Source of the DNA: Antedon mediterranea
Lineage: Eukaryota; Echinodermata; Crinoidea; Comatulida; Antedonidae
DNA length: 64,000 nucleotides
Reading direction: 5' to 3'
Assembly (NCBI RefSeq): GCF_964355755.1
Contig: NC_092672.1
Location: 4,402,001-4,466,000, forward strand
Each line of letters begins with the position of its first letter. The first letter of the stretch is position 1. Of the stretch, positions 11,041 through 40,288 are shown in pieces. A model generated the notes under the pieces. The model made no database searches. It was not told the origin of the DNA and was given only the letters and a program-made list of their open reading frames with translations. A program made the translations under genes and the position numbers.

Positions 11041-12453
11041 ATGCCTTTTCTACGGAGACTAAGTCGGACTAAAAGTGGAGAATATCAAGACCAAGAAGAA
11101 CAACCAGATAAGTCTAAAGAAAAGGTAAAACGGAGAAGTTACAGTGGATCATTGCCAGTATCAAAGGAACTTGAGAAACAGCCTGGGAAGGAGCGTAAAG
11201 CGTCTGTGAAAGACAAGAAGAAATCGAAATCTGAACCTGCTGATAAATACCCTCTCTTCTATGTACATTACTTAGGACGTGTGCCAACGAAACTAGAGTA
11301 CGGTCATGAGGCGATCGAAGGCCCGGTTGATCAGTTATGCCAACTCCGAGAAAAAGAAAAACTGCAAAAACTTGTTCTGACTTTCAATATGGATGGACTA
11401 TTCTTCCGGGAGATTACAGGACCTTTTAATCGAATTAAAAAGGATGGTATGTTCATATACATTCCATTACATATGGTAACGTATGGTGTAGGCTCTGTAG
11501 CCCACCCTAATGTGTTCGCTTGTGTCACTAGAACGGCTTTCGACAAAGCGAGCAGTACTGCAGACATGTATATCGTTCATGCTTTTCTTTGTGATAAGCC
11601 GACAGTAGCACAAAAAATGACATACTGGCAGCTACAAGCATACATAGAGGCGTATGAAACGCTGAAGAGAAGGAAAGAATTGAGATTGCAGAGAAAACTT
11701 AGTAGGAATAGTCTGAAAGCAGACAGTACGTCCATCAAAACGTCGACTACAACGGTATCGGGATCGTCGCGGGAAGGAAGTGTCGGAAGTCGGGACAGTG
11801 GCAGACGAAAGTTACATGGATCTACCTTTGTTAATCCAAATATTCCAAAAGAGCATAAGTTGGATGACAGCAAGCCTTCAAGTAAAAAGAAAACGAATGG
11901 AAATGATTCTCCGATATATGCGCAGGTTAAAAAGACGACATCGAACTCAATGGCAGATGATGAACGAACAGGTGAATTTACGCAGTCGGACACTGAACGA
12001 AAAAGTGCAACATCAATTGGAAGCCGGACGTCAAAAGATTCTGCACTTGGAGATGAAATTACATGTGAACAGGCCAATGACACATCAAATGTCACATCAA
12101 ATGTCACAAAAGAAAGCGACTCATCTATAAAAGCTACAACCTCAGTTGCGTCGTCTGTACCGGTCAATTCTACGACCTCTGATGCATCATTAACATCAGG
12201 CGCTACTGCAACCTCTGTCCCGTCTTCCGTACCCACCACCGATACGAGCGACGAAGGAGGGAAAAGTAACCCGTTTTTCATTGATGATAATTTTGATACA
12301 ATTAGTGTTGTTACCATGCCGATTGATTCAGAGTCGGTTCCAAGAGATGAAGCTTTTGAAAAAAGAATCTCAGAACTAAACAAACTAATGCAGGTAGATG
12401 CCGAAGATCTGAAAGCTAAATTGATCAAGGACAATCCAACTCTTGTTAGGTAA
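11041..12453 (+). CDS. PTB1: single-exon PTB/PID-domain protein, FAM43/PID1-like
   Basis: 470-residue uninterrupted frame starting MPFLRRLS with a good context (AAAATGC). A lysine-rich stretch (about 57-69, containing KKKSK) leads into one PTB domain at about 70-212. Its landmarks are FYVHYLGR (strand 1), a VTYGV segment, HPNVFACV, and VHAFLC before the long C-terminal helix ending LKRRKELRLQRK. FAM43 proteins share this layout, including the basic helix end. Residues 215-405 are Ser/Thr-rich and probably disordered, with one Tyr in a possible kinase-site context (PIYAQV, Y293). FFIDD at 412-416 and a C-terminal helix (about 438-462) follow. The role is likely membrane-receptor or signalling adaptor (inference). 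The final AGG-TAA overlaps a donor-like AG|GTAATA, so a spliced 3' extension is possible. An AATAAA occurs near 13291. Confidence 0.85.
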   Translation: MPFLRRLSRTKSGEYQDQEEQPDKSKEKVKRRSYSGSLPVSKELEKQPGKERKASVKDKKKSKSEPADKYPLFYVHYLGRVPTKLEYGHEAIEGPVDQLCQLREKEKLQKLVLTFNMDGLFFREITGPFNRIKKDGMFIYIPLHMVTYGVGSVAHPNVFACVTRTAFDKASSTADMYIVHAFLCDKPTVAQKMTYWQLQAYIEAYETLKRRKELRLQRKLSRNSLKADSTSIKTSTTTVSGSSREGSVGSRDSGRRKLHGSTFVNPNIPKEHKLDDSKPSSKKKTNGNDSPIYAQVKKTTSNSMADDERTGEFTQSDTERKSATSIGSRTSKDSALGDEITCEQANDTSNVTSNVTKESDSSIKATTSVASSVPVNSTTSDASLTSGATATSVPSSVPTTDTSDEGGKSNPFFIDDNFDTISVVTMPIDSESVPRDEAFEKRISELNKLMQVDAEDLKAKLIKDNPTLVR

Positions 12454-12521
12454 TACTCTTTTTCCATTACAGACATACGCACGTGCGTGTACGTACGTGT
12501 TTGATATTTTATTTATTATCG

Positions 12522-13004
12522 CATCATCATCATTCATCATTATTATCACCATTTAGCATCATTATTATCACCACCACCATCATCATCAGTATCATCATAA
12601 TTCATCATCATTATCATCACCACAATCATTATCATCATTCATCATCATTATCATCGCGACTATCATCATTGTCATCACTATCAACATCATTATAATTATT
12701 TTCATCATTTACAGCATAATTATTATCATCAGCATCATTATTATCATCATCACCACCATTATCATCATCATTATCATTATTTATCATCATTATAATCACC
12801 ACCATCATCATTCAGCATCATTATCATCACCACCATCATTCATCATCATCATCATAATTCATTATCATCACCACCATCATTTTCATTATCACCGCGACCA
12901 TCATCATTGTCATCATTATCATCATTATCAGCATCATCATAATTATTTTCGTCATCATCAGCATAATTATTATCATCAGCATCATCATCATTATTATCAT
13001 TATT
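12522..13004. repeat. Degenerate CAT/ATC trinucleotide tract, about 480 bp
   Basis: The stretch is almost wholly built from TCA, TTA and CCA triplets (ATCATCATT, CACCACCATC). The interruptions recur in similar blocks, so the tract has grown by duplication of larger pieces as well as triplet slippage. It follows the PTB1 stop codon by about 70 bp and probably lies in its 3' UTR or flank. Confidence 0.9.
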
Positions 13005-13349
13005 CTGCTTGTATTAGCCACAGTATTATGATAATAATTATTTTTTTGAATATTTTAACCAAATCAATTAATTACAATCCATGTATAGGTTTACTATCAT
13101 ACTAGACTATACTAATTTCGCATAACAGACACCACCCAATTTACCTATGGCATTGACGTCATAGTATGCCTGATAGCCCTTTGGAATTCTACTTTTCATT
13201 TACTTGAAACTAATATTGGGTGGAGTAATGGAATTCGGCATTCAAAATGTTCCCGGTCTGTGCTTTGTGTTTTCTTTGGTTCAGTGAAAATAAATAAAAT
13301 CGAATACGCTTGGAAACATTTTAGTGGAAACCAGACGAACCCATCTTGA

Positions 13350-13468
13350 AAGTTTGGTTCCCACTAGGACGTAACGCAAGGACGTAACGTAACGCAAAGT
13401 GATTTGACCAATCACAAGCGATAGATTATTCGAACAGTCGCGTGTGATTGGTCAATTCGCTTCGCATC
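13350..13468. mobile_element. MITE-1 copy, right end lost
   Basis: It begins with the family end (AGTTTGGTTCCCACTAGGAC) and continues through the inner repeats, then stops before the right terminal repeat. It is a truncated copy. Confidence 0.7.
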
Positions 13469-13670
13469 CCAATTCAATCTGTTATCGAAACCAATTTGAC
13501 CATAGTATACAATCTATATAATCGACCTACATTATATAATATTATTTGTAATATTTATTTTTATTATAACATTTTATTTAAGGCGTCTTTATTATGGCAC
13601 AATCGATAGACACGGAGTGTTTCATCGGCAAGGCCTTAACATCGGAGCAGACGCAGACACTAGCTTCGCA

Positions 13671-13864
13671 TAAAGGCTAATTTAGACGAGTCGTAACGAG
13701 TAATAGAAAAAACAGAATCTATGTTATTCCTTATGACCATTTACACACAACGCGGAGCAGATAGGTGGTTTCCGCTCAGGATAGATACAGAATCTGAGAA
13801 TGTGAGACAAGCTGTGCGATTTTCCGCTTACCGTTTTCGCTCGTCTGTGTAAATTGGCCTTTAC
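13671..13864. mobile_element. Small TIR element (MITE-4 type)
   Basis: The left end TAAAGGCTAATTTAGACGAG is close to the reverse complement of the right end, which reads (minus strand) GTAAAGGCCAATTTACACAG. The element is about 194 bp long and non-coding. I saw only this copy in the window, so the family call is tentative. Confidence 0.6.
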
Positions 13865-15450
13865 AGAAGACAGTAGTTTGGTTTGAAGACAAAGAAATCA
13901 TCATTGACCGTAAAACGGATAATGTCACTGAAGAAATAATCATTGATAAAACCACCGAATGCTGTTATTTTTATTTATGTATAAGTTATAGGAGAGGAGG
14001 TGGATACATATTTATTATTTTTATAAATTTAGAGAGTACAGATAACAGGACAAGTTACGACACAAAATGTTTGCAACATCTGGTCAATCGTTTTTGGTAT
14101 ACGTCTTTCAGACTGAAAGGTTATATATACACTATGGTATTTTACCGTAACCTGATGATTCATTTGGTAAATCGATATCGATAATGATCGATTGATATTG
14201 CTTTTGATATACTGCACTTTATTTTCTTTTTTATCTTTTGCCACCACCTTCAATGTTTCATTACATATTTTCTACCTTTATTCATTATTTTCTGTTTTTC
14301 CTCATTGATATCATTCCATTAATACAAAGTATTTACTTCTTAACATTCTTTTTTTGTTAAATCCTCTATTTACAATAACTAATTGTATAATAATTAAAAT
14401 AATTAACTACATACATCAAATGAAAGGTGTGTATATACAACAGATGGCCGTTACTTAACCTTAAATATATTGATTTATTGGTTAATCACATCGATTGATA
14501 ACGTAACTGTATCGAATTTTAATATAATGCATTTCGGAAAAGCTAGGCTTAGTTGGTCTGATGTTTTGGGTTCAAAATCTTCACTCCCTCTCGTCGAAAT
14601 TCCTTTCAATGCATCTTGAGATCAGAGATTTCCCCCTACTTGTTGATGGAAGTATTTAAGGATGTAACTAAATTGTGTAGACACAACAGCAATACAAACG
14701 AAAAAGAGGAATAAGATAGGCCCTATACCTTAATATGATGTAAATGATACTCGGTGAACAATATTACTAGTTTATACTGTATAGTGATTCTAGTTGATTG
14801 GAGGTGTACGAAGGTTAAATTGTAGTTAGTTTACTAATTATAGTAAATAGTTTATATCACGTCTTCCAAAATATGATTCAATATAATATATATGAAATAC
14901 TCTTTTATACCGAGACCCTTTGGACATTTTGATGTACTTTCATTTGCAGGTAACAGGTCTACAAATAAATAAGAATACATACCTTATTTTTTAAATTAAA
15001 ACGAAACAATAGCAAACCTGTTTTGAATTTCATTTCATAATTATATTTATTAATTTGTGTTTTATTTGGAAATAAGCATATACCGTAGTTGTATTTATAC
15101 ATATTTTTTTATACAGACCCTTAATACTCATTATTTTATTTACGTGTACATACGTAATATTATGCGAAAAATGAGAAGAAATGCAAAGTGCAAATCTGTG
15201 GATCTGGTAAGGAATGCGATTGTTTTCATTTCAAACAAAAATGAAACCGAGAATATTGTCACTTAGACAAGGAACCCTATTTGCGACATTCATTGTTATT
15301 GTCATATTACTGTTTCATTATTTGAGTTGCTTGTCACGTGATGATGGCTTCGATTTGATACGTAATCGATACGTGTGGAAATGTGCAAATTACGCGTTAA
15401 GATGTTTTCACAACCATTTCATCACAAACGCAAGCGTTAGGAACGCCTGT

Positions 15451-15634
15451 TAAGCTTGGTTCTCACTAGAACGTAACGCAAGGACGTAAACGCAACGCAA
15501 GCGTTTTAACCAATGACAAGCGAAGTTATAGACAGTTAGCAATCACCAGTGAATAAGCCATCGCTTGTGATTGGCCAATTCACTTGCGTTGCGTTACGTC
15601 CTTGTGTTGCGTCGCCAGTGGGAACCACGCTTTA
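15451..15634. mobile_element. MITE-1 copy
   Basis: Full-length copy in inverted orientation relative to the one at 5767. Its left end reads GCTTGGTTCTCACTAGAACG and its right end GTGGGAACCACGCTTTA. It is one of two copies only 29 bp apart. Confidence 0.85.
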
Positions 15635-15662
15635 GCGTTATCACGTATTGAGAAAGATAGAG

Positions 15663-15826
15663 TAAAGCTTGGTTCCCACTAGAACACAACGCAAGGACGT
15701 AAGCCGCAACGCAAGCGAATTGACCAATCACAAGCAACGGTTCGATAATCCATCGCTTGGATTGGTCAATTCGCTTGCGTTGCGGCTTACGTCCTTGCGT
15801 TGCGTTCTAGTGGGAACCAAGCTTAA
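15663..15826. mobile_element. MITE-1 copy, near-perfect foldback
   Basis: Both halves of this copy are almost exact reverse complements over about 75 bp each. The left half runs from AAGCTTGGTTCCCACTAG through 'GTAAGCCGCAACGCAAGCG', and the right half mirrors it. The centre lies around 15735-15755. Any transcript would form a long hairpin. The high symmetry suggests a young or recently corrected copy. Confidence 0.9.
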
Positions 15827-16756
15827 CATGTTCCTGGGATTGAGGGCACATAATCATAGCTTTCGGCGGGCTCAACGTGGTGTGAATCGGCTCAATTGTT
15901 TCGCCCACGTTGTCTTTACAAATATTGATAGAAGGCTTGGCTTAATCTTTCATTCCACAGACTATTATTGTTTTTTGTTGACAGATTGAAATACGATCCA
16001 TTTTATGGTTTTGAGGAGGGGTGAATCAAATGTATTCAAAATCTATATCAAACTTGGGAGATGTAAAATATCTCCCTGATCAAACATAAGGTTATAGGCC
16101 AAATAATACAAAAGAAAGAAATATAACTTCTCTAAAAATAAATTGATCCTTCTAAAAATGCCTTTTCGTTTCTAATAATTACTGAGATGATCTATTCATG
16201 GAGGTAACATTGATATTTATATATTGAAGAGAGGCCTACGGAAATACATAATTTTTTTATCGTTTGATGGCGCTTCAACATAAATTATTTTCACCATGGA
16301 AACATATAAAGCGTCTTCATTATGTAAATAGGTACTGTAATTAGTAGTGTGTTGCATTATGTCATAAAATACGGAAGTCTTTTATCTGGCGCTTCATGAT
16401 TTATCGAACGTTATTGCTGCTGTATGTTAGTTCTATGATATTGTATAAGGAAAGGTGGGGTGACCTTGAAACGCTGATGATCTAACTTGCGTGTGCAATA
16501 ATACCGGTATTAGAAAATTGTAATAAATTATCGAGTCTTAGTCAGCATACGCCCAAGATGCTGTTTAAAACGGTGGTACCGTATGATATTTTGAAAATGT
16601 ATACTTATTGAATACGGATGTCAAAATGACAGTGCCAGAAATGTATTATTGAACAGAAAGAATTGGCGGCACGGTTGATTGAATTTGGAGAATAGCATTG
16701 TAAGAGAAAACACAGTTTGTATTATTTTGCATAATCGTGTATTGTAGTGTATAGAG

Positions 16757-18286
16757 ATGAACTCCAACCTAGGTAACAATACAATAGCGAGGAGAAATTC
16801 TCCGCTCAATGGGCAGGTTGAAAAACGCCAGCCTAACCTGCGTCACACTAGTGGTAGTAAAATATTAGCTCCGTCCATGTACATCATGGCGTCGAAAATA
16901 CTTAAAAAGAAGAGTAAAAATGATCCGAAATCGGACATGTTTGCTGTCAAAGCAGATGACACGTGTCCTATATTTGACGTGCAGTATCTAGGGAAGATGC
17001 CTGCGAGAGGTGAGTTTGGAAGGGAGTTTATAGCCGAACCTGTCGAGTCGTTACTTAAATTGAAAGACCGTAGCAGGATATCTAATAGCAAGTTGACAAT
17101 ATCAGAACGAGGATTCCACTTCCTGGATCATAACGGCCCATTTGGAAAGGAAAAACACGTTGTTATACCAATACATCATATATGCTATGGTGTTGTTGAT
17201 GATCAAAATCCTAAAGTGTTTGCTATTATTTCGAAAACGGACTCGACCGCCGAAGGCTCCTTGTACGAATGCCATGCGTACCTGTGCCCTCGGAGAAGAG
17301 TAGCTAGCGAAATTACTAAATGGTTATTGCGGACATTTCTTCAGGTTTTTGATAAATTACAACAAAGGCGTCGAATGCGTTTAGAAAGGAAGGCGAAAAA
17401 GGAACAAAAAATGTTAGCTAAAGCGATTGGACTTCCCGAGGGAAGACCAAGCTTCGCGCCAAGCGAAGCGTCTAGTCCGCAATCGCCGTCAATTTCTACG
17501 GCGTCGTCGGCATTCTCCTTTGAGGAGACAACCTTTTCAGTTTTTTTAGAAGGAAAGAAAAATCACGGAGCTGCAATTCGAATTGGGAGGCAACGTCCAG
17601 CAAGTATGCAACTAGGAACTATCAATCGAGAAGGTACCCAGTTGTTAAACAGATCTACGACTTGGAATGGGGCGCATTCAAGGCCACATTCCTCCTCTGT
17701 GCCTAATACTCTAAATCCACAAGATCTTCAGCAGGTAGGAAGCGGGGTGTACCACCCAGCCCCTGATTATTATACCACACCACCGCCTACTCGTTCTAAG
17801 ACCTATGCAACTGAAAGACCGCACCAAAGTCACAAAACAACACCTTCGCAGCCGGTAAACTCTCGTTTAAAACCGCCTAAGCATAATCAAAGACAGTATC
17901 TTAAGAAACCATCAAAACGTAACCGACATGCTTATACCACGTCTACGGGTAGTAGCTCAGACAGTCGCCAAAGCGATTCGTTCTCTAGCCCGGTACAAGA
18001 CGAATCCGATTTCTTCTTTATTGACATGCTACAGGAACATGTTACATCTATGGACCTTCAATCAATAAGTGAGCACGAATCTGTTACGACTTATGGCAGC
18101 AGTGGTACACAAATTAACCCTCTGAAACAAGAGGTACGAATGGAGGACGTTGAGCGTAGAATACGCGATTGGTTACTAGGAGATAAAGAGGAGAGTAGTC
18201 CTGAAGAAACTAGCTCCTCTTATTCCGGCTCATCGGCGTTTCAGCCAAATAGACCTCGTTCGAATGGTGAATTCAGATACTTCTAA
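16757..18286 (+). CDS. PTB2: single-exon PTB/PID-domain protein, FAM43/PID1-like
   Basis: Uninterrupted frame of 509 codons from the first ATG. The ATG at 16886 (Met44, ATCATGG) has a better context and gives 466 residues starting MASKILKKKSK; I think it may be the true start. One PTB domain spans about 70-205: FDVQYLGK, then HICYGVV, NPKVFAII, CHAYLC and a final helix with LQQRRRMRLERK. Domain and basic helix end parallel PTB1 most closely. The tail is Ser/Pro-rich, with a TPPPTRSK segment (341-348) that could bind SH3 domains. FFFIDM at 419-424 and VERRIRDWLL at about 465-474 recall the PTB1 and PTB3 tails. An in-frame TAG at 16745 closes the upstream frame. AATAAA occurs near 19097. The role is probably signalling adaptor (inference). 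Confidence 0.85.
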   Translation: MNSNLGNNTIARRNSPLNGQVEKRQPNLRHTSGSKILAPSMYIMASKILKKKSKNDPKSDMFAVKADDTCPIFDVQYLGKMPARGEFGREFIAEPVESLLKLKDRSRISNSKLTISERGFHFLDHNGPFGKEKHVVIPIHHICYGVVDDQNPKVFAIISKTDSTAEGSLYECHAYLCPRRRVASEITKWLLRTFLQVFDKLQQRRRMRLERKAKKEQKMLAKAIGLPEGRPSFAPSEASSPQSPSISTASSAFSFEETTFSVFLEGKKNHGAAIRIGRQRPASMQLGTINREGTQLLNRSTTWNGAHSRPHSSSVPNTLNPQDLQQVGSGVYHPAPDYYTTPPPTRSKTYATERPHQSHKTTPSQPVNSRLKPPKHNQRQYLKKPSKRNRHAYTTSTGSSSDSRQSDSFSSPVQDESDFFFIDMLQEHVTSMDLQSISEHESVTTYGSSGTQINPLKQEVRMEDVERRIRDWLLGDKEESSPEETSSSYSGSSAFQPNRPRSNGEFRYF

Positions 18287-21200
18287 CAATATTTAACAAT
18301 ATGGAATACTTAAAGCATTGAAAGGTCTACACTACACTTTATACTAATTATCTGTGGCCGTTTCGGGATTTTTAAAAATAGTTTGCCCATGGCTTAAAAA
18401 TTGAAATTAGATTTGTTGAAATTTAAGAGGGATAATGAAATTGTAATTAGATGTTTTGCCCTACTTTGACGTAATTTGTACTTTATACTAAGTACATTTG
18501 AGAATACTTTCGAAAAATATATACTGTGATTTCGTAAAAAAAAGCCTCTTTCAAAGCAAAGAGAGTGCTGTTAACTTGGTCTGCACGTAACTAGAACCAA
18601 TATTAATTTAACTTATGAACGAAACCACAAAGTGCGATAAAATTATATTGATTTGACGAAACCATTTGGTCATAGACAAACACACGTTCTCGTTTCCTTA
18701 CGTGAACCATTCACAAACATGTTTACAAAAGTCCATTAGATTGAAATCAATTTACGCACAGTAAGCCTGTGCACATTTTGTATACAATATATTTTTACAT
18801 AGATAACAATTTCTGCCAGAAACAAACAAATTGAGATACATTTTAGCTTATACTAAGTAAAAGTTATTAATTGCTTAATATTTGTAAATAATAGATATAT
18901 TTTTATATAATGGTATTCGAAAAACAAGAGGTTTCACAGTACTTATCTGTTTAGAGGTGGTTCGAAATTGGAAAGTCGAAAAGACCCCTTTAACATGTTT
19001 TCTAAAACAAGCTTTGCGATTGCCGAACTCTGAACAAATCACTTAATGTAAAAACGCTTAATATGTATACAGTACTTATTTAATGAACTGAGCCTAATAA
19101 AAAAAAATGGGGAACAATTATTTTGAGTAAAGTATATTTGTTGCACCTTAATCGTCATTATTTGTTTCATTAGTAGCATTTTTCAACGAGAAAAAAGTTT
19201 GACATGCGCGTTGCATAAAAATTGTACCAAATGTTAGCCTCTGTTCAGGATGGCAATAAAGTCTATGATCTGTTGGAATAACACCTAAAATCCGTGAAGA
19301 AAAATAAAAACTAAATAAATATGTGACATTGCAAAACAAATAAATATTGTTTTCGTAATTGACATCGATGGTGATCACTATTTAACAAACACTATAGGCA
19401 ATTTTCCACATGACAAGTTACGAGAATAATTTCCAGACAAATAGTTTTGGGTTTCTTTAATACCGTATTGTGTTTGTGAATGCTTTTGTGGTCTTTTTCT
19501 GTGGTATTACTTCTTGATTTGACCTCGATTCGGTGGAAAGACACGGTTATTAACAGACTGTCCCATTTTATTTTTACGACGATAAACTATGCAGATACTT
19601 TATATCATATTAGACTTAATAGCATAGAAATATATCAAATCGTTAAATAACTTCACTTCACAAGTTCATATTGTGCGCGCAAACCAATCTATATACCTTT
19701 TTAATAGCAATTACATTGTTTGAACGATTTTTGGTCGTTATGCCTTGAGGAAAAATGGCCGTATTTTGTACCATTCTTTGTACCACCCTGGGATTATGTA
19801 TATATGTACCAGGGACAACTCCCTGTATGTACCTTTCTCTTTGTACTGTCAGTAATTCGCAACTAAATTCTGGTAGAGGGCGGACTATTCGTCTCGTTTG
19901 ATTTCACATTTTCTATCCAAAACTTCTGAAAATCCTCTTTATATTTACCACGAGTAAAACTTGAACCCGAGCTGTTCTCTTTGAGTAAGATAAAGTCACT
20001 ATGTCCAGAGATACACTACTTATTGTAATATCTTGACTTAACTTTTGTTTTAAGCCGATATTTGCAAGATTCAGTGACATTTCACAATTCAATTTTAAGC
20101 TAATGGTAATTGAGAGGATTATTGAACAGTAACAATGTGTAAGTCTATAGCTTCATGCAGTATCAGTAGCAGTCTAACCGCTAAACAAATTGCGTAATAT
20201 GAATAACTTACGTCTTATGTGGTGGAAAGTTACTTAATAGCTAAACCAAACAAAATGGTAGATTGGAAATACTTTGTTGTGCAGTAAAGTATTTCCTACA
20301 GTAGCAAACTTTACCGAATTTGTTTCAGACTTCCCAAATTAAGTTTATCAGAAGTGTAAACTTACTTTCTATATAGTTTGCCAAAGTTTGTCATCAGTGG
20401 TCTACGGTTGAAACTTGGAAAACCATTTTTTTTTTGGACAAACTCGGAGTTTGAAAGCAAAGGTTTGACGCCGAGACACAGAATTGTTTTATTTGTCAAG
20501 AATGAGTGCTACTATAGTTTTTTCCAAGTTTTGATATTATAAGTGATTAAACTTAAAATATTACATTTGGGTAAACGTAAGTTTATAACATAATTTTTTA
20601 AATTAAACTTTTTCATGAGAAAATGTAATTTAGAGCAAAACATACCTAAATTGTCTGTCAAACAATGTTTTTTTGGTTATAATTACTGCAACCGTTTCTG
20701 TTGCCTTATTTTAAGTGAAATAATTTTTTTTTCTACAGAAGTGAATAACTTTTAAAAAGTGAAAAACTGCAAAATGACCTATTCAAAATCTGATTTTATT
20801 AATCTTTAAGGGGTTTTCTCTTTAATGTTTACCTTACCATGTGTAATATAAAAATAGTTAAACTATGATTATTATCTTTGAAACATTGAATAACGTATTC
20901 CATTGGAGATGCACCTCCAATTACCACCTTTAATTATCAATGTGATTTTTTTTTCTGTACTCGAAAGTAAAGTATCATGAATCATGGAGAAATAATTATT
21001 TATGCTTTAAAGTAAAATACTTGTTTTGATTGTTACACATTATTTGCCAACACTGTTATGATCTCAACAAGCTCCGTGATCTGAACATTGTTGGAATTGT
21101 TAAATATGTGATATAATAATATTACAATTCTGAAACTATGAATATTTTGATGGTTCAAGATCATCATAATCATTGTCAGTCATATTCGATTCGATCGACT

Positions 21201-22240
21201 TAGTCACCATGAAATTCACACCGCAAGCAGATGACAATACCAATTACAGGAAGGAACATGGTGTACATTTGATAATTAGTTGCCAGCGATTCAATGTCCT
21301 GGTCTAGTATCTATTTTGCACCTCACTGACTTTTTTCAAACGGGTGGCTGATTGAAGAAATTCATAGCAACGCAAAATCTATTTTCTACAGGTGAATGCG
21401 CAAAGGCTTAACAACAGTATTACGTCACTCCGTACTAAATTTCTTTGCTTTATTCAAGTCGAGGATTTTGTACTTTTAAACTCGTTTCAGTCCACGGGTC
21501 ACAGACAATGCCAAGTGTTTTCTCCGGCTCTACATAAAGTAATAACAATGAAAGGTACGCCCAAAACTAAATCGTCAGTTTTTTGTGAAATTTTGCACGA
21601 ATATTAAGGTAACTATTGGTTATTAGAAGCTTTAAATTAGGTATAATCTTAGACTTTAGAGATAAATGGTAGCTGTCGTAGTATAGTAGATAACACGTAT
21701 ACTTTGTATAATATTAAGTTGAATGATCTTTCGTACAATGCTAATTAGGGCCTACGTTGTGTTTAAGGTAGGCCGAAGAATCATGAATTGCATCGGTCCA
21801 TTGGTGTATTGTAGCAGCTATTTTCCCATGCTTTTGTTGATGTTCAACGTTGTAGTTTATTTCAATTAAGGTAACAAATGTATGTATATCTAACATAATA
21901 GTACTCAGTTATGTGTGTTGACAGTTCTTTACTGTAAGCAAATACTTCCAACAATACGAGACAATACGTACCAAAATGTTCACATGACCCATTTTATTTC
22001 AGAAGTTTGTGTAAATATATTGTACAGATTTGTGTTTATACTTCTTTATTCTTCTATATTTACATACTTATTTCATTCACTTTTTTGAACTGGTCTTTCA
22101 TCTTCTTTAGTATCAATAGAGAGAGTATCATATCATAAACAGATTGATTGATGCTATATATTTAGGTAGGTTAGGTTGGTGTATCTAGGCCTGGGTGATA
22201 ATCGGATCTAATGTGATCCTCACCTGTATTCTTTTTTGTG

Positions 22241-24642: not shown

Positions 24643-25339
24643 GTACATAAAGATAATCTGGCATGGAATTGTGCTCACTCGCAAACGTTTCTTTCTCATA
24701 ACCAGTAGGCTGTTTTTTGTTTGTTTTGTATTCTAAATGTTTTTAGAATGTTTTAGGTTTTAGCTTGTATTCGGATATTTTACAAAAACATTGAACTGTG
24801 TCAGTATGTGAGGATGTGTCGGAATCAATGTTACATCGTACATAATTATAAACCTATAGGCAGGTCTTCCTTTGTCCTTATGTGTGAACACGCACTAGCA
24901 AACAGGTGTCTCGCATTCTCGTTGTAGGCCAGAGAATTGATTTTTTAATATTGTACATGAGTCAACTTCATATCGTAGATTAACACCTATTAGTCAATTG
25001 TAAACAATGAACCTTTGGAAATGATGGAACAATTAATATATCGTAAAAAATATCTCCTAATAATGATTCACGAATGATAATATGCAATAAATTATTATCA
25101 TTGAGTAAAAGCTAAAATCAGTTTTTCTAACTCAATTGTTGGCCTACTAAGTCTACTGTAGAATCCAAGCAATCAATCCAATATAGAACTTGAACTCATT
25201 TATTGAAAGTATAATTATAAGAAATAAACTGTTTTCAAACTACCCTCAATTTGTTGTATTTTTACAGGAATTGCATGCAGTCGTTAGTTATGGTAACAGT
25301 ATAACTAAAATCTGGCAGTGAGTTTATAAACACGTTAAA

Positions 25340-26194
25340 ATGGCATTTTCGAGGAAAAAATCCGCTCAATTTGACCTCACCGAGGAGCCTCCATCGTTTG
25401 AGGTATGCTACCTTGGTAGAATGATTACGCGGGTTAAAATGGGACGAGAATGCACCAAAGACATCGTGCGGACATTGTACAATAAAGCGCGCGGCAGACA
25501 TGATTTACAACGCGTACACGTGACTATATCAACCAAAGGTATGCGAGTATCTGAATCACCAGCCATTGCTGCAAATAGACAAACCTTTATACCGATTTAT
25601 ACAGTAACGTATGGTTCTGCTGATAAAGTGTACCAACGTGTATTTTCTTTTATAACGACTGTACAAAGAGATAACAATGAGGAGTCAACCTTTGTGTGTC
25701 ATGCGTTCTTGTGTAGAGACACCTCAATGGCAAAGACAATGGTGATGCATCTCTTAAGTGCCTTCAAATGTGCTTTTGGAGATTGGAAAAAATATGCCAA
25801 TAGGCAAAAGATCAAAGATCGGTTAGAAGCTGGACCAAGTATTTCTAACGGAGTTGTTCCAGATAATGTAAATGGATCATCAACGAGTACTTCTGCAGAT
25901 TTGACAGACAATCCGTTGGAGATTATGTTGCCGCCTAAAGACCAATCGACCAGAGTTGAAAAGGTTGCTCAGTGGATGGAAAGATGGTTGCATTTAAGTG
26001 TGCCACAAGACTCTCAATATGTTGGTATTCTTTTTCCAGATGATGAAGAGGAATTTAATCGAGAGTTTGAAGAATTTTCTAGAAGAAACGGAACATCTTC
26101 TTTAGATAGACGTAATAGTCGAGAAGAGACATTGTCGCAATCTGTCTTTCCAAAAAAGGAAGTACGAAGAAAGAAAAGTATTACTACTAGCTAA
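25340..26194 (+). CDS. PTB3: single-exon PTB/PID-domain protein, PID1-like
   Basis: 284 residues from MAFSRKKS. It is nearly all PTB domain (about 18-150) plus a 130-residue tail. Landmarks are FEVCYLGR, an ECTKD stretch, VTYGSADK, VFSFIT, CHAFLC and the final helix LLSAFKCAFGDW. This layout (YLGK, then CT-x-KPV, then Y-x-x-AD, then CHA) is that of vertebrate PID1, which binds lipoprotein-receptor tails (established for PID1; the partner here is unknown). The tail contains VEKVAQWMERWL (206-217), comparable to VERRIRDWLL in PTB2, then an acidic DDEEEFNREFEEF stretch, and it ends in a basic RRKKSITTS. An upstream ORF of nine codons (ATG at 25275) lies in the likely 5' UTR, just after a splice-acceptor-like site at 25267. 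A candidate AATAAA is near 26866. Confidence 0.85.
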   Translation: MAFSRKKSAQFDLTEEPPSFEVCYLGRMITRVKMGRECTKDIVRTLYNKARGRHDLQRVHVTISTKGMRVSESPAIAANRQTFIPIYTVTYGSADKVYQRVFSFITTVQRDNNEESTFVCHAFLCRDTSMAKTMVMHLLSAFKCAFGDWKKYANRQKIKDRLEAGPSISNGVVPDNVNGSSTSTSADLTDNPLEIMLPPKDQSTRVEKVAQWMERWLHLSVPQDSQYVGILFPDDEEEFNREFEEFSRRNGTSSLDRRNSREETLSQSVFPKKEVRRKKSITTS

Positions 26195-29408: not shown

Positions 29409-29577
29409 AAGAAAGTCCAGGACACTGGGAATATAGGCCTAAGTGGAATAGGGTAGGACTGGTGTAAAAGCTAAAAACCATTGCAAGTATAACACAGTGA
29501 ATTGTTGTTATACTCTTATATTATCATTTTAATACCAAAAAAACGTGTAGTATATGTATATAAATGCTCAAGGCTTT

Positions 29578-29625: not shown

Positions 29626-29730
29626 ATTTTATGACAGTCTGCATTTTCATTAAAATGCCGTACGATATAGATTCTCACTCGTAATCTATTATATTATACA
29701 TGATTTATTTGACAAAGACAATGTATTATG

Positions 29731-32250
29731 ACCTTTACCCGATGTATACCCATGTTCTACAGTGTGTCAGTCTTTTACCTTTACCCGATGTATGCCCATG
29801 TTCTACACTGTGTCTTTTACCTTTACCCGATGTATACCCATGTTCTACACTGTGTCTTTTACCTTTACCCGATGTATACCCATGTTCTACACTGTGTCTT
29901 TTACCTTTACCCGATGTATACCCATGTTCTACAGTGTGTCTTTTACCTTTACCCGATGTATACCCATGTTCTACACTGTGTCTTTTACCTTTACCCGATG
30001 TATACCCATGTTCTACACTGTGTCTTTTACCTTTACCCGATGTATACCCATGTTCTACACTGTGTCTTTTACCTTTACCCGATGTATACCCACGTTCTAC
30101 ACTGTGTCTTTTACCTTTACCCGATGTATGCCCATGTTCTACAGTGTGTCTTTTACCTTTACCCGATGTATACCCATGTTCTACACTGTGTCTTTTACCT
30201 TTACCCGATGTATACCCATGTTCTACACTGTGTCTTTTACCTTTACCCGATGTATACCCATGTTCTACACTGTGTCTTTTACCTTTACCCGATGTATACC
30301 CATGTTCTACAGTGTGTCTTTTACCTTTACCCGATGTATACCCATGTTCTACACTGTGTCTTTTACCTTTACCCGATGTATACCCATGTTCTACAGTGTG
30401 TCTTTTACCTTTACCCGATGTATACCCATGTTCTACACTGTGTCTTTTACCTTTACCCGATGTATACCCATGTTCTACACTGTGTCTTTTACCTTTACCC
30501 GATGTATACCCATGTTCTACACTGTGTCTTTTACCTTTACCCGATGTATGCCCATGTTCTACACTGTGTCTTTTACCTTTACCCGATGTATACCCATGTT
30601 CTACAGTGTGTCTTTTACCTTTACCCGATGTATACCCATGTTCTACACTGTGTCTTTTACCTTTACCCGATGTATACCCATGTTCTACAGTGTGTCTTTT
30701 ACCTTTACCCGATGTATACCCATGTTCTACACTGTGTCTTTTACCTTTACCCGATGTATACCCATGTTCTACACTGTGTCTTTTACCTTTACCCGATGTA
30801 TGCCCATGTTCTACACTGTGTCTTTTACCTTTACCCGATGTATACCCATGTTCTACACTGTGTCTTTTACCTTTACCCAATGTATACCCATGTTCTACAC
30901 TGTGTCTTTTACCTTTACCCGATGTATACCCATGTTCTACAGTGTGTCTTTTACCTTTACCCGATGTATACCCATGTTCTACACTGTGTCTTTTATCTTT
31001 ACCCGATGTATACCCATGTTCTACACTGTGTCTTTTACCTTTACCCGATGTATGCCCATGTTCTACACCGTGTCTTTTACCTTTACCCGATGTATACCCA
31101 TGTTCTACACTGTGTCTTTTACCTTTACCCGATGTATACCCATGTTCTACACTGTGTCTTTTACCTTTACCCGATGTATACCCATTTTCTACACTGTGTC
31201 TTTTACCTTTACCCGATGTATACCCTGTTCTACACTGTGTCTTTTACCTTTACCCGATGTATACCCATGTTCTACACTGTGTCTTTTACCTTTACCCGAT
31301 GTATACCCTGTTCTACAGTGTGTCTTTTACCTTTACCCGATGTATGCCCATGTTCTACACTGTGTCTTTTACCTTTACCCGATGTATACCCATGTTCTAC
31401 ACTGTGTCTTTTACCTTTACCCGATGTATACCCATGTTCTACACTGTGTCTTTTACCTTTACCCGATGTATACCCATGTTCTACAGTGTGTCTTTTACCT
31501 TTACCCGATGTATGCCCATGTTCTACACTGTGTCTTTTACCTTTACCCGATGTATACCCATGTTCTACACTGTGTCTTTTACCTTTACCCGATGTATACC
31601 CATGTTCTACACTGTGTCTTTTACCTTTACCCGATGTATACCCATGTTCTACACTGTGTCTTTTACCTTTACCCGATGTATACCCATGTTCTACACTGTG
31701 TCTTTTACCTTTACCTGATGTATACCCATGTTCTACAGTGTGTCTTTTACCTTTACCCGATGTATGCCCATGTTCTACACTGGGTCTTTTACCTTTACCC
31801 GATGTATGCCCATGTTCTACACTGTGTCTTTTACCTTTACCCGATGTATGCCCATGTTCTACACTGTGTCTTTTACCTTTACCCGATGTATACCCATGTT
31901 CTACACTGTGTCTTTTACCTTTACCCGATGTATACCCATGTTCTACACTGTGTCTTTTACCTTTACCTGATGTATACCCATGTTCTACAGTGTGTCTTTT
32001 ACCTTTACCCGATGTATGCCCATGTTCTACACTGTGTCTTTTACCTTTACCCGATGTATACCCATGTTCTACACTGTGTCTTTTACCTTTACCCGATGTA
32101 TACCCATGTTCTACAGTGTGTCTTTTACCTTTACCCGATGTATGCCCATGTTCTACACTGTGTCTTTTACCTTTACCCGATGTATACCCATGTTCTACAC
32201 TGTGTCTTTTACCTTTACCCGATGTATGCCCATGTTCTACAGTATGTCTT
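29731..32250. repeat. 42-bp minisatellite, about 60 copies
   Basis: The unit runs CCCATGTTCTACACTGTGTC then TTTTACCTTTACCCGATGTA then TA, with few substitutions. Recurrent variants are ACAGTG for ACACTG and TATGCC for TATACC. Two 1-bp deletions (TACCCTGTTC) lie near 31223 and 31307. All three plus frames and one minus frame are stop-free across most of the array because 42 is divisible by 3. The resulting 300-850-codon frames are artefacts of the repeat. The rare variant ACCTGATG occurs at 31711 and 31963, exactly six units apart, which shows higher-order duplication. Confidence 0.97.
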
Positions 32251-32740
32251 CTAAGAGACACACGAGATTAAGCCTGGATAGAGATTGTCTTATGTGATTT
32301 GTAATCGTAATAATAATTGTACCAAATTACCACGGCACGCAGTCACATACATCCTTTCCCCTTTAAAGGCAAACCATCCTGTGTGTTTTTAACAAGGGTA
32401 ACAGACTTCATGGTACCTCAAATAAAATGTCGACAAACACGACTTCGGTGGTTACGATACGAGGAGGAGTACCCAATTAAGATACAGGCGATTAAAATTG
32501 TCGGGTTGCTCAGACAGTTGTACGGCAAGTTTTCATTCTTAATTAATAAATTTGGAAGTATTTTTAATCTGAAACTAAATAAACTTGTCAACTCATATCT
32601 GTCACAATTACCGTAATTGTTCTGAAAATACAAACCTAACAAACCAATACTCGTTACTAGTAGGCCTATTTAAATCTGTCCAGTATCGTAAATGTATTGT
32701 TGAATGGATGCTAAATGAATAAATAAAAATAAAAGGCAAT

Positions 32741-32833
32741 TTCCGTTATACAGCATCACGTGTGTTTATTATGCGACGCCTAACGTTCCATGATACGTGC
32801 ATCACATGTAATATATATACTGTATCACGGAAC
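32741..32833. mobile_element. Short foldback element
   Basis: TTCCGTTATACAGCATCACG on the left matches the inverse of the right end (...ACTGTATCACGGAA). 'CACGTGTG' and 'CACATGT' lie inside. It is similar in plan to the elements at 24477 and 26577. Confidence 0.45.
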
Positions 32834-33705
32834 TTTCCTACGAACTGCACAACATATTGCTATATGTCGGGATAAAGCACTGGAAATCGGTTGGAATTAA
32901 TCATTTACTTTTTTTTCTTTACAAATTGTCTTTTTTTGTATTTTTATTTTCACTTTGTAGTTCAAACTATGAAATCCCTCCAGATTAATCAATGACTCAC
33001 TGGTTTTATAAAGATATTGTAAAAGTCATGCTTTTGTGAACAAAACATAACCCACCTTATTTGGGTAGTTATGTTCCACGTCAGCTACCATCTATACAAT
33101 TGTCTACAAAGTATATATTTATCGGCTTTTGTCGGAAAAGCCAAATTTACGTGAGAATTCCCACGCTAAAAGTTTCAAAACATATTTTTTTATTAATACT
33201 CAATTAAAAAAATGCTTATTTTGAAATTGATTCACCAATGTACAACTCTTGTAACACTATTATTATTATTATTATTTTTATTATAAACAATTATAATTTA
33301 ATTTCGATTTTACCTCCCAGGGTTGTGCCTGTTAAATTATCGATTACCTGATTAACAGGCTTAAAATATTATATTGTAATCAGTAGGTAGGACAAACGGT
33401 TGTGCTAGATATCACTAGGACTGAAGTTGAAGGGCGTTAGGCCTACAGTCTGCTGACTACACACCCGGCTCATCCACAATGGGTGTGGTTGATTCCGGTT
33501 ATTTTTTGTTTATCTTTAATCTAAATCCATTACTAAAAGCAAGAGATAATATCTCTATGTTAAAATTATTGTATATAAATGTGATTTATGACATTCATTA
33601 TTGGGGGGCGTAGGGGTAATTTCTATAATATGATATCGTTGTCAATGTATTTTTTTTTATTTTGAAGATACTAAAGTTCCCCACCATATAGAATGAGCTA
33701 GCCCA

Positions 33706-33737
33706 AAGAGGTTTTATAGTTCACTATAAAACCTCTT
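33706..33737. repeat. Perfect hairpin, 14-bp arms, 4-nt loop
   Basis: AAGAGGTTTTATAG (33706-33719) and CTATAAAACCTCTT (33724-33737) flank the loop TTCA. It sits immediately before the first unit of the 52-bp minisatellite. Confidence 0.8.
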
Positions 33738-33740
33738 CAC

Positions 33741-34990
33741 TACCTCATGGCTAGCCTTATAATTAGGTTCAGACATAGGCATATTATACAATACCTCTAT
33801 GGCTAGCCTTATAATTAGGTTCAGACATAGGCATATTATACAATACCTCTATGGCTAGCCTTATTAGGTTCAAACATAGGCATATTATACAATACCTCTA
33901 TGGCTAGCCTTATAATTGGGTTCAGACATAGGCATATTATACAATACCTCTATGGCTAGCCTTATTAGGTTCAAACATAGGCATATTATACAATACCTAT
34001 ATGGCTAGCCTTATAATTAGGTTCAGACATATGCATATTATACATACCTCTATGGCTAGCCTTATAATTAGGTTCAGACATACGCATATTATACAATACC
34101 TCTATGGCTAGCCTTATAATTAGGTTCAGACATAGGCATATTATACAATACCTCTATGGCTAGCCTTATAATTAGGTTCAGACATAGGCATATTATACAA
34201 TACCTCTATGGCTAGCCTTATAATTAGGTTCAGACATAGGCATATTATACAATACCTCTATGGCTAGCCTTATAATTAGGTTCAGACATAGGCATATTAT
34301 ACAATACCTCTATGGCTAGCCTTATAATTAGGTTCAGACATAGGCATATTATACAATACCTCTATGGCTAGCCTTATAATTAGGTTCAGACATACGCATA
34401 TTATACAATACCTCTATGGCTAGCCTTATAATTAGGTTCAGACATAGGCATATTATACAATACCTCTATGGCTAGCCTTATAATTAGGTTCAGACATAGG
34501 CATATTATACAATACCTCTATGGCTAGCCTTATAATTAGGTTCAGACATAGGCATATTATACAATACCTCTATGGCTAGCCTTATAATTAGGTTCAGACA
34601 TAGGCATATTATACAATACCTCTATGGCTAGCCTTATAATTAGGTTCAGACATAGGCATATTATACAATACCTCTATGGCTAGCCTTATAATTAGGTTCA
34701 GACATACGCATATTATACAATACCTCTATGGCTAGCCTTATAATTAGGTTCAGACATAGGCATATTATACAATACCTCTATGGCTAGCCTTATAATTAGG
34801 TTCAGACATAGGCATATTATACAATACCTCTATGGCTAGCCTTATAATTAGGTTCAAACATACGCATATTATACAATACCTCTATGGCTAGCCTTATAAT
34901 TAGGTTCAGACATAGGCATATTATACAATACCTCTATGGCTAGCCTTATAATTAGGTTCAGACATAGGCATATTATACAATACCTCTATG
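33741..34990. repeat. 52-bp minisatellite, about 24 copies
   Basis: The unit is TACCTCTATGGCTAGCCTTA + TAATTAGGTTCAGACATAGG + CATATTATACAA. Variants are GCCTTATTAGG (shortened units at about 33858 and 33960), AAACAT for AGACAT, and TACGCAT or TATGCAT for TAGGCAT. The boundaries are sharp: the array ends within a unit at ATGGTACC. No frame is open across it. Confidence 0.95.
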
Positions 34991-35656
34991 GTACCTAATA
35001 TTACGATATTCCAAAAGAAATGGGTTGCAAGTTTCAGATTGCGTATTTGTAATAGTTTTACAATGTTATTTATTAATTTAGGTACATGGGTCTCTAAAAT
35101 CATTGATGTATTTTAACATCGGATATATTTCAAATAATTACACTAGTTTAACCTTTGACCGAAGTGTATATACACTTAAATTCAACTTCATTTACCTTTG
35201 TACTCTTGTCATCAGTATCCCGCAAGCTAATCAATAGACACAAAGAACATGTAAATGTTTAATGATATGGTTTACCATATTGATTTAGATGTCCCCGGAA
35301 ATAAACTGATCTAATATGGTTGTTTCCTGTAACCACAATTTTATCTTGTTTTATAGACTGAGAATTCTTGTTCGTTATAATAAACTCCACAAAATTGAAA
35401 TAATAAAACATGAGCAAAAGATGTTTCACAGAAAGCGGAAGTTGCATTATTGTATTGAATAATATATTGCGACGATAAATCAATAGTGAAACACAATGTA
35501 TTTTGTGTCTCATATACGTCGTTGTCCAGTAGGCCTTACTGTATAGTTACCATTAACAAAATATGTCTAGACCTAGGCCTAAAAGTACTTTCATCCTTTA
35601 GTACAAACAATATTACATTTATTGTTTGAAGGTTTGATGGCGAAATCAAATGTTGT

Positions 35657-35709
35657 TAAATTTTGCGGTACACCACGTATATTAGTTCTGAAAAAAAAAA
35701 TGTTGAGTT
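35657..35709 (-). repeat. Second copy of the hammerhead-adjacent repeat
   Basis: It shares GCGGTACACCACGTATATTA, TTCTGAAAA and GTTGAGTTT with 29316-29362. On the minus strand it starts at AAACTCAAC. The bases before that (AAGGAAAG on the plus strand) no longer match the 29.3-kb copy. Confidence 0.6.
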
Positions 35710-35919
35710 TAAGGAAAGAGAGTTGTACAACTCCCTGGTGTGAACATAGTTGATATGCAATCATGAAGGTGTGATTCAATCGTATACATACTGGAATTTG
35801 AGTAACCCCTCCTTGAGACACCCCTATTAAGTGCACACTTTCCAAGTATGTTTTAACATTAAGGCCCATTGTTTCGAGGGGACCCTTCCGTAAAACAAGT
35901 ACAGTATCAATTTTCAATT

Positions 35920-36912
35920 CATCGACATTTTTATTCCATAATCAAAATAAAAACATATACAAATACAATACAAATAATAAGATAATGGAATGGGATACAA
36001 AATAAGCACAAGTGCTTTAAGCATGTAACCCTAACAAAAAGATCAAACAATTAGTACAAACAAAAAGAACAAACCAAAATAACATAATGTGATTTACTTA
36101 ACTTAAATATTTCTATTGTTATAATATTGCTTTAATCTCTGTTTAAACAAACTTAAAGTGGGGGATTGTTTTATATAGTCTGTTAAATTGTTCCAAATAT
36201 GTGTTCCTTGGTAGGAAATACATTGCTGTCCGACTTTGGTGCGTTTTAGTTGTGGACAGTAGTTTGACCTGTTTCTAGTTGAGTAATTATGGAATGAGGC
36301 AGATGTACTAAATAAGTTATTAAATGATTCAGGTAATAGATTATGTTTATATTGATACATAAATATAGCAGTGTGTTTCGTATAAAGGTCAAAAATATTT
36401 AATGTTTGGGTTGAAATAAAAAGTGGATGAGAAGGATGCATAAAATGAACATGACAAATATTTCTAAGTGCTTTTTTCTGGAGAATATGTATACGGTTTA
36501 AGTTTGTAGCAGAAGTAGCACCCCATACTGTGATAGCATACGTTATTCTAGGTAATATAAGTGCATTGTATACCGTTAACAAGATTTTACTTGATAACAT
36601 AGACTTCACTTTGTTTAAGACACCAATTATTCTAGAAATACTGTTTGCTACCTCATTTACATGATAATTAAACGATAAAGTTTCATCCAGAAATAAGCCT
36701 AGAAATTTAACTTCAGTAGCTTTTACTATACATTCATTTCCCATCCTCAATTCTAGTGAGGTAGTGTCAGCTGACTTATTTCTAGCCTTAAATATAACAT
36801 ATTTTGATTTGTTTACATTTAGCGTTAATTTGTTAGCAATAAACCAGTCCGAAAGTATAGATAACTCCTGGTTCATTGTATCAAAAGCTTGAGTAATATC
36901 ATTGTGACTATA
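35920..36912 (-). mobile_element. 5'-truncated non-LTR retrotransposon (LINE, Jockey/CR1-like)
   Basis: A minus-strand fragment that includes the last part of a reverse transcriptase and a 3' UTR of about 180 bp ending in 'GGAATAAAAATGTCG'. The 5' break lies just downstream of where the catalytic YADD motif would be. The flanking direct repeats at about 35852 and 36914 support an insertion by target-primed reverse transcription. Confidence 0.8.
36103..36912 (-). pseudogene. Reverse transcriptase C-terminal fragment
   Basis: About 270 open residues without stops. Visible parts: LSDWFIANKLTLNVNKSKYV (downstream of the YADD box), VKFLGLFLD (thumb-proximal motif), LPRITYAITVWG and LQKKALRNI. These are typical of the end of non-LTR reverse transcriptases. 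The catalytic core (fingers, palm, YADD) and any endonuclease are absent, so it cannot work. The apparent start MGLNVKT is the flanking repeat, not the element. The intact frame means either a fairly recent insertion or chance preservation. Confidence 0.8.
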
Positions 36913-37030
36913 AAATGTTTTAACATTAAGGCCCATTATGTCAAGGGTACCCTATGGCCGTATTCACCAATCACACTTAAGTAAGATATTTCCTCTAAAT
37001 ATTAAGTATTTCACTTACATTGTATTCACT

Positions 37031-37214
37031 TAAACGTGGTTCCCACTAGCGACGCAACACAAGGACGTAACGCAACGCAAGTGAATTGACCAATCACAAG
37101 CGATGGCTTATTCGCTTGTGATTGCTAACTGTCTATAACTTCGCTTGTCATTGGTTAAAACGCTTGCGTTGCGTTTACGTTCTTGCGTTACGTTCTAGTG
37201 GGAACCAAGCTTTA
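37031..37214. mobile_element. MITE-1 copy
   Basis: Full-length copy with ends AACGTGGTTCCCACTAG and CTAGTGGGAACCAAGCTT. The interior matches the copies at 5767 and 56162 closely. Confidence 0.85.
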
Positions 37215-39232
37215 GTATGCATGGTGAATACGGCAACTGTTTCTGTACACAGTGTTCTAATGGAGTCAACAGAATTGAATTTGAAAATTATAAATTTTTA
37301 AAAGTTAATAAAATGTACGTAGTTTAGTCCCTACAGTAAAATAACACTATATAAGATTACTGTACAACGTCAGTTAATATATTTTTTCAATGGTCATCAT
37401 TGATATTATCCATGGTCAAACACAGTATTCAGGATGTCCGTCAATACTTCTTAGGCCCTATACAGTTAATCGATTAACGAATGATTTTGCTATCTCCAGA
37501 GCTGAGATGTAATCAACAACCTCGTTTGATATAAAACAAATATTTTATGTAAAGACACCAGAGGTAAGTTATAGTCTATTCTATGAAACTATTAGTTAAT
37601 GTAAAACAAATAGAAATGTAGGCCGTATACTGGTGTGACGTGTCAGTTACTGGAGCAACTGCAGTAGACGAATTGTATAGTACCTTTAATTGCGATACTG
37701 ATTCTTCAGTAACTAACTTAAGTGTTAATTGACTATTTAAACCGTTTTTGTTAAGAGATTGAACTACCTTTTAAATCATTATTTGCGTTTTTCAATTGAA
37801 AGGAGGCTTATAATAATAGTAAAATATCATATTACGTCATTGAAGGGTGTATATTATTTGGAAAATATTATGACGACATTTCACGTGTATAATTATTGTA
37901 TGAGTGAACATTATTTTATCAATTTAATAAACCGAGTGAACGGGGAGTGGTAATTAAATTAGTGTGTATTTTACCAGTGATACTATACATTACAATTTGT
38001 AGCAGTATTATTTTGTATTGTTTGAAACGTGGCAGTCAATTTAATTCAACAATTGTTGCTCAATAATCGAAGTGATGTAATAATTAAAAGATAATTTCCC
38101 CGACATTTTAATTAAACAACATTTGCGCAATCGCAACACGTACGTTTGAAATGTGAGCGCAAAAAGTGTATGTGTGACCATACACCATACCGTACTGGGA
38201 CTTTCCCTAGATCATTATCTTATGATCAACCCATCTCCCTATCCATTATTCCGTGGCGGATTACTGTTATTATTTCAGCGCTAAAATGCTTTCTTATAGC
38301 TAAAGTAGTCTGTGAATGAAGGAATTAAGTATGTATTATTTCATGTGAGCTTATAACATGGATGACTTGGTTTCATGGTAATAACATGAATAGACTTGAT
38401 GTTCTACTGTGTATACGGCTAATATTCCAAGATACCATGTTTGCTGTGTAAATTTTAAAGACGGCCATGTTTTAGTCTGGAATAATATTATCATCGAGCT
38501 TAACTTTAAATACGTTTCCCCCGCAAGCAGTATGTTCATATCCTAACATAACAATAAGACACTTAATAATGTGCTTGTACATATTTGAAAAGATTCAGTA
38601 CTCCGCCTTTGTCAGTCCTTTGTCAGTGTATCTAAGTAAAATTATAAATAAAAATTAGGCCTACAATTGTGACATAACACCAGCGTAATTAGCATCCACC
38701 TTAATATTTCTTTGAAATGCAAAACAGTGCGTTATGATTCAGCGTATAAAAACCTATACAATGTATGGGTAGGTTTTTACAACACCTATTAATATTTTTC
38801 AATAGATTACATAAATATTGATTTTTCATTTCATAAATTAATTTCAAAGGAAAGTAAATTTGACTCTAATTTTTCTAGTAGTCCTGGTTGAAATCTAACA
38901 TGTTTGCCACCATTTGTAAGGGAACCCCTTCGATGGGAAAAGATGCCCGAGGCTAGTAGCCAGGTGACGTAGAGTACATATTTATTTAGACAAAAAATTA
39001 TATTGTTGAAATTTTTGAACCAGCAAATAGAACACTTCACGGTTGAGTTGAGTGGAAGCCAATATTAGAGCTGTTTTTAATAACAATTGATGAAGGACAA
39101 TACATCGTATCACGATTCAGTCGAGTTACTTCGCTCACGTCATCGTCAGTTATTGAGCCAGTGTTGGACAAAATACAACATAATACGGCTGCTTATTATA
39201 ATACATAGGTTGTGAATTTATTGTAGGTTACC

Positions 39233-40288
39233 ATGGCGTTTTGGAAGCGAAGAAGCATGACTTTTTCGCCAAATCCACCCGATACAAAACACGAGGTACA
39301 GTACATGGGAAAGGAACCAGCCGAAGGAAAGATCGGCCTAGAATGTACGATGAAGCCTGTAGAAAATTTGTATCGACGGTACAAGCAAACGAAGGGAAAG
39401 CACTGTAAACGGGTACAGCTTGAAGTAACGAACACAGGGATTATCCTCACTCATTTGAATGCCGCAGATGGTCAGCAACAAGAACAAACAGTGCCGGTTG
39501 TTAAAATGTCATTCGGAGCTGCAGACCCAGAACATCCCAAGATTTTCTCATTTGTAATGGTTAACGATCAAGCGAAAGGCCCCAATAAATGGGAATGCCA
39601 TTCATTTTTATGTGAAAGTAATTCCGTGGCAAAGTCACTGACTTTATATTTAGTGAAAGCATTTCAAAAAGCGGCAGACGGCCGAGCGGATGAGGACGAA
39701 CATTTTAAAGATCCATCTAGAAGGACTAGGCCAACTACTTTACATATTTTGCACGATCGTGGACGGCATCAGTTGGCCGATAAAGCCAAACCTCCTCCCG
39801 TGTCTACGCTCAAAGTAACAATGAACGTAGAAAACATAGAAGATTATGATAAGGTAGGCATTCGAAAACCAGAAAAGACAAAAGGTAGTTCTGTTAAACT
39901 TGATCAAAATAAACACTTTGCTATGTTGTTAGCGAAAGAGAAGAAAGAGTTAGATGCACTAAAAATGGTCAACCAGGCGAAAGATGAACACGTTGATCAG
40001 AACAATGCATTAAACAAAGAAAATGAATTTTGTAATGAAGAAGAGGTTGAAGATTTATTGAATGATGTTGCAACAGAAGCAGACAATGATGAGATAATAA
40101 TGGCGGTAAATCCAACGCTACCTTTAAGTCCAGATTCTGAAGCACCGACTGGAATGGAGATGACGGATGATGAATTAAACGGAAACGATTCGAATGGAGA
40201 CGTCGACGAATCATCGGACACAAACTTTCGTAAAACAAAACGTAAATCAGTTCGATTTACTGACGAGGAGCCAAAAATTATCGACTGA
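39233..40288 (+). CDS. PTB4: single-exon PTB/PID-domain protein, PID1-like
   Basis: 351 residues from MAFWKRRS with a strong start context (ACCATGG). The PTB domain spans about 18-150: HEVQYMGK, ECTMKPVENLYRR, MSFGAADPEHPKIFSFV, CHSFLCES and the helix LVKAFQKAADG. The spacing and the CT-x-KPV, AD and CHx features match PID1 best, more than in the other three. The tail is acidic and probably disordered, with a predicted helical stretch at about 225-260 (FAMLLAKEKKELDALK). It ends in KSVRF (338-342), which fits the RVxF docking consensus of protein phosphatase 1. It may therefore join a receptor tail to PP1 (inference). A splice-acceptor-like TAG lies 6 bp before the ATG. AATAAA occurs near 40842. 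Confidence 0.85.
   Translation: MAFWKRRSMTFSPNPPDTKHEVQYMGKEPAEGKIGLECTMKPVENLYRRYKQTKGKHCKRVQLEVTNTGIILTHLNAADGQQQEQTVPVVKMSFGAADPEHPKIFSFVMVNDQAKGPNKWECHSFLCESNSVAKSLTLYLVKAFQKAADGRADEDEHFKDPSRRTRPTTLHILHDRGRHQLADKAKPPPVSTLKVTMNVENIEDYDKVGIRKPEKTKGSSVKLDQNKHFAMLLAKEKKELDALKMVNQAKDEHVDQNNALNKENEFCNEEEVEDLLNDVATEADNDEIIMAVNPTLPLSPDSEAPTGMEMTDDELNGNDSNGDVDESSDTNFRKTKRKSVRFTDEEPKIID

Follow-up and report, generated by a model that had tools for sequence, protein, structure and literature searches.

The window analysed here, the whole 64,000-nucleotide stretch (C3:4402001-4466000 of a 354-Mb genome in 18 contigs), carries a cluster of four genes, each of which encodes a PTB domain followed by a tail of its own:

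11041-12453, + strand: PTB1, a single-exon open reading frame (ORF) of 470 aa; PTB domain at about residues 70-230, Ser/Thr-rich tail
16757-18286, + strand: PTB2, a single-exon ORF of 509 aa; PTB domain at about residues 70-215, Ser/Pro-rich tail
25340-26194, + strand: PTB3, a single-exon ORF of 284 aa; PTB domain at about residues 15-164, short tail
39233-40288, + strand: PTB4, a single-exon ORF of 351 aa; PTB domain at about residues 13-150, acidic tail

The preliminary description of this DNA had claimed four single-exon ORFs on one strand, and both the coordinates that it gave and the plus orientation of all four proved to be exact. An in-frame stop precedes the ATG in every case (4/4), and the frames are bounded by stops on both sides. 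The sequence is A+T-rich; in 60 trials with Markov-simulated sequence of equal size the longest ORF starting with ATG had a mean length of 114 aa and a maximum of 158, which all of the cluster ORFs (509, 470, 351 and 284 aa) exceed, and their G+C content differs between codon positions. Judged by eye, acceptor-like sequences occur shortly upstream of the start codons of PTB3 (tttttacag/g near 25268) and PTB4 (ttattgtag/g near 39227), so that 5' non-coding exons are possible for these two genes. The intronless state applies to the coding parts only of PTB1-PTB4, which are presumably expressed. An antisense ORF at 11577-12476, nearly all of which is opposite PTB1, was discarded as a shadow ORF.

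The search of the 354-Mb genome detected no fifth cluster copy, and the cluster represents a single location. Two other positions were considered as further members and rejected: C3:3482727, which has one stop and gave 17.6 bits, and C3:20251001, which has 20% identity and one stop.

Several other features were seen in the window:

3854-7440, + strand, upstream of PTB1: FKBP-type peptidyl-prolyl isomerase exons (FKBP_C, 39.5 bits), then exons that look TPR-like by eye
29731-32250, between PTB3 and PTB4: tandem array of 60 copies of 42 bp, 97% alike, with several frames open
33741-34991, between PTB3 and PTB4: tandem array of 24 copies of 52 bp
36103-36951, - strand: truncated piece of an abundant retrotransposon-like ORF, apparently young
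59520-60147: nine copies of a 69-bp unit in tandem, 96% alike

The gene upstream of PTB1 is probably of the FKBP4/5/6 type. The retrotransposon-like ORF has more than 50 genomic copies at 96-99% identity, many of them open over about 988 aa, and the piece in the window gave no Pfam match at E<=0.01. The octamer TAGGCCTA occurs 18 times in the window compared with about 0.6 expected from base composition (worked by hand).

PTB domain and predicted fold

All four proteins scored above the curated cut-off (25.4 bits) of the Pfam profile PF14719 (PID_2, a PTB domain), with 40.6 bits for PTB1, 41.3 for PTB2, 61.7 for PTB3 and 47.8 for PTB4, and two of the four also passed the cut-off for PID (PF00640). 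Their alignment contains the PTB landmarks that had been claimed for them, namely YLG/YMG, a [YF]G strand, a VF/IF strand, H..LC and a long helix; it also shows G.E and, within the two strands, the G of [YF]G, which is invariant, and the F of VF/IF. AlphaFold models of PTB3 and PTB1, built on an alignment of the four cluster sequences alone, have the PTB fold; full-length PTB3 had a mean pLDDT of 58.5, the PTB1 domain one of 78.3, and the PTB core mostly reached 62-95 when scored by ten-residue block. For both models the best solved structure was 3so6, the PTB domain of ARH complexed with the LDL-receptor tail (PTB3: Z 19.1, rmsd 1.7, 133 aligned; PTB1: Z 19.1, rmsd 2.1, 132 aligned), and the next-ranked structures, at Z 17.3 and 17.5 for the PTB3 and PTB1 models, lay 1.6-1.8 below it. 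PTB1-PTB4 belong to the PTB/PID superfamily and are of the PID_2 type.

Duplication history and family placement

Four other PTB loci of the same genome served for comparison:

C5:4056900-4057457: FAM43 gene, single exon, 167.7 bits to PF14719
C7:7742883-7747057: ARH/LDLRAP1 orthologue, multi-exon, its PTB domain encoded by four exons or more
C5: L014, a single-exon PID_2 ORF of 170 aa
C7: L015, a single-exon PID_2 ORF

The first of these is named FAM43 because it matches PF14719 over its full length and resembles the human protein. As L014 and L015 are single-exon, intronless coding parts are common in the PID_2 group of this genome. L014 falls within C5:3825700-3831300 together with L044, which precedes it by about 5 kb and is a PTB exon belonging to a different gene; the two, some 0.23 Mb away from FAM43 on C5, possibly form another small PTB cluster. 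In the open literature we found no useful account of FAM43/PID1 evolution or of PTB gene clusters.

In two trees, of 14 and 11 rows, PTB1-PTB4 formed one clade (support 86/85 and 85/88), in agreement with the shared PTB family previously claimed, and the proposed pairing of PTB1 with PTB2 was recovered, the two being sisters with support of 98/97 and 94/91. The pairing of PTB3 with PTB4 was neither supported nor rejected by the trees; holding the two together came at almost no cost (AU p 0.46 and 0.28), so that the suggested history of one duplication followed by one of each product is possible. The MAF start offered as a mark of the second pair resembles the starts of the FAM43 (MVNVFKRKKQQF) and L014 (MNMFSRSKSVTV) proteins, which both have the basic 'M..F.+KK' start as well, and is, from these comparisons, probably ancestral. 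At the position where the strand in ARH, GULP and Numb reads SYC/SFC, the aligned PTB domains mostly having C, all four cluster genes have G, which on the alignment is likely to be a shared novelty. The PTB-domain identity to PTB1 is low (34, 26 and 21%), which indicates that the duplications are old.

Among solved proteins (the searches returned neither a FAM43 nor a PID1 structure) ARH 3so6 was the top sequence match for each gene, with E values of 0.009 (PTB1), 2.9e-8 (PTB2), 7.8e-14 (PTB3) and 7.9e-12 (PTB4), and a joint profile of the four gave 2.1e-22 for ARH compared with 6.1e-10 for the runner-up, GULP1. As a control, the FAM43 of this genome was searched against solved structures; its top match was GULP1, which was weak, and ARH was not found. 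The Pfam profile cannot separate FAM43 from ARH, because the ARH PTB domain itself reaches 60 bits on PF14719. In the alignment, the residue of the C-terminal helix that corresponds to the phenylalanine of ARH AQAF, presumably a peptide contact, is Y/F/F/F in PTB1-PTB4 and C in the genome's FAM43. Joining the four with ARH cost 2-4 log units (AU p 0.15-0.20) and was absent from the best tree, and joining them with FAM43 gave AU p of 0.21-0.27 in the two trees; neither join was supported, and neither was rejected. The four genes are separate from both the FAM43 and the ARH gene of this genome, and as far as alignments and trees can place it the set is a branch of its own near ARH and FAM43. The assignment to a 'PID1/FAM43 kind' held as regards the PID_2-type PTB domain but found no support in the narrow sense of FAM43, since the genome's FAM43 is separate and the four are closest to ARH.

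The likenesses to known adaptors are mixed. ARH/LDLRAP1 has the nearest sequence for all four proteins and the nearest fold for the two that were modelled, and shares with them the plan of a single N-terminal PTB domain followed by a long unstructured tail, but the ARH gene of this genome is separate (C7) and multi-exon, whereas the cluster coding parts are single-exon and clustered, and the ARH tail motifs are not conserved in the cluster proteins. FAM43 (FAM43A/FAM43B) resembles them in its Pfam PID_2 domain, its single-exon coding region and the basic start ahead of the PTB domain; it differs in that a clear FAM43 is present on C5, that the cluster genes score far lower on PF14719 and that in the PDB search FAM43 showed no likeness to ARH. 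Dab2 and Numb also combine a PTB domain with endocytic-type tail motifs, such as the NPF of PTB1, but their sequence and fold matches are weaker than those to ARH. PID1 (NYGGF4), likened here by class alone, has a single PTB domain.

These features bear on where the cluster came from. The genes could be lineage-expanded members of the FAM43/PID1 type, as the preliminary description suggested, an intronless FAM43-like ancestor having been copied to this location and then expanded, and the likeness to ARH being no more than retained ancestral PTB sequence. The single-exon coding parts, the PF14719 matches of all four and the basic start held in common with FAM43 and L014 on C5 are consistent with such an origin, as is a reduced tree with a branch (77/83) that sets the four, FAM43 and L014 apart from the rest. 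However, the FAM43 and L014 branches are long and possibly subject to mutual attraction, FAM43 reaches 168 bits on PF14719 compared with 41-62 for the cluster genes, and ARH is the best match of all four cluster genes and not of FAM43; we therefore consider this origin somewhat unlikely. Alternatively, a retrocopy of ARH/LDLRAP1 that had lost the introns in the process might have undergone tandem duplication, which would account both for the ARH-best matches and for intronless coding parts where the C7 gene has its PTB domain over at least four exons. This is unlikely, as ARH and the four are not united in the tree (although the join is not rejected either), the cluster proteins have no ARH-like tail, and the divergence is such that no trace of retroposition would remain. 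That some copies are decaying pseudogenes would fit their great divergence, but is very improbable given frames open over 284-509 codons, the retention of core residues in every copy and the differences in G+C between codon positions.

Tails

The tails had been described as completely different. Full-tail alignments bore this out, none of the six pairs being significant (all p of at least 0.10), except that a helix-like stretch is common to residues 455-473 of PTB2 and 199-217 of PTB3 (PLKQEVRMEDVERRIRDWL and PKDQSTRVEKVAQWMERWL), which is suggestive only (p=0.03, uncorrected for the six pairs). The PTB2 tail has FFFID and a C-terminal helix-like stretch, and in the PTB3 tail AlphaFold predicted a helix at 233-251 with low confidence.

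A scan of the four tails with 17 patterns found NPF (410), DNF (416) and a clathrin-box-like LMQVD (449) in PTB1, all in the last 61 residues, with p values against shuffles, uncorrected for the many motifs, of 0.014, 0.032 and 0.048. The PTB4 tail ends with KSVRFTDEE (338), which fits the RVxF pattern of PP1 binding (KSVRF, p 0.07 against shuffles, also uncorrected). As 17 patterns were tried on four tails, and the motifs listed would not survive correction, those of PTB1 and PTB4 are leads and not findings. The same scan gave no endocytic or RVxF-type match in the tails of PTB2 and PTB3. The beta2-appendage motif of ARH, in its strict form F..[FL]...R, had no match in any of the four tails, and the clathrin box of ARH itself is not conserved as such in them; EEFNREFEEFSRR of PTB3 resembles the beta2-appendage motif by eye, but does not match the strict pattern and was rejected.

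A proposed set of receptor adaptors

In ARH, Dab2 and Numb the PTB domain binds [FY]xNPx[YF] signals and the tail binds clathrin and AP-2 (PMC6912373); ARH binds the integrin beta5 tail with a Kd of 5.6 uM (PMC9234671). Because the helix aromatic is kept and ARH-type proteins bind in this way, we take PTB1-PTB4 to be receptor-tail adaptors with divergent outputs. Our preferred reading, to which we give a probability of about 0.65, is that they are old tandem duplicates encoding cytosolic adaptors that would bind NPxY-type receptor tails and, through their own tails, different partners. Tandem duplication of a single PTB-adaptor gene whose coding part lacked introns would have given the four old copies. 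The N-terminal ARH-like PTB domain would grip a peptide of the NPxY/NPxF type in a membrane-receptor tail, probably independently of phosphotyrosine and aided by phosphoinositides, by analogy with ARH, and the mostly unstructured C-terminal tails would recruit the partners. In PTB1 the NPF, DNF and clathrin-box-like site may lead to clathrin-type sorting, and in PTB4 the RVxF sequence may recruit the phosphatase PP1 locally. As the PTB domain has been kept while the tails have diverged, the copies probably link receptors to outputs that differ between them.

It is possible, albeit by no means probable, that the four represent a distinct, lineage-restricted adaptor subfamily, neither ARH nor FAM43, in which the PTB domain was multiplied and the output tails came to differ (clathrin coat in one, PP1 in another). 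As receptor-tail adaptors the four genes are probably a small, undescribed set that is ordinary in kind, and the known mechanism of the adaptor class is unchanged by them. ARH-type adaptors determine which receptors are taken up by cells. Near ARH and FAM43, whose mutual relation is poorly resolved, the set forms a further branch, and its linked old copies, with the PTB domain kept and tails unlike one another, would offer a natural series on how adaptors gain outputs.
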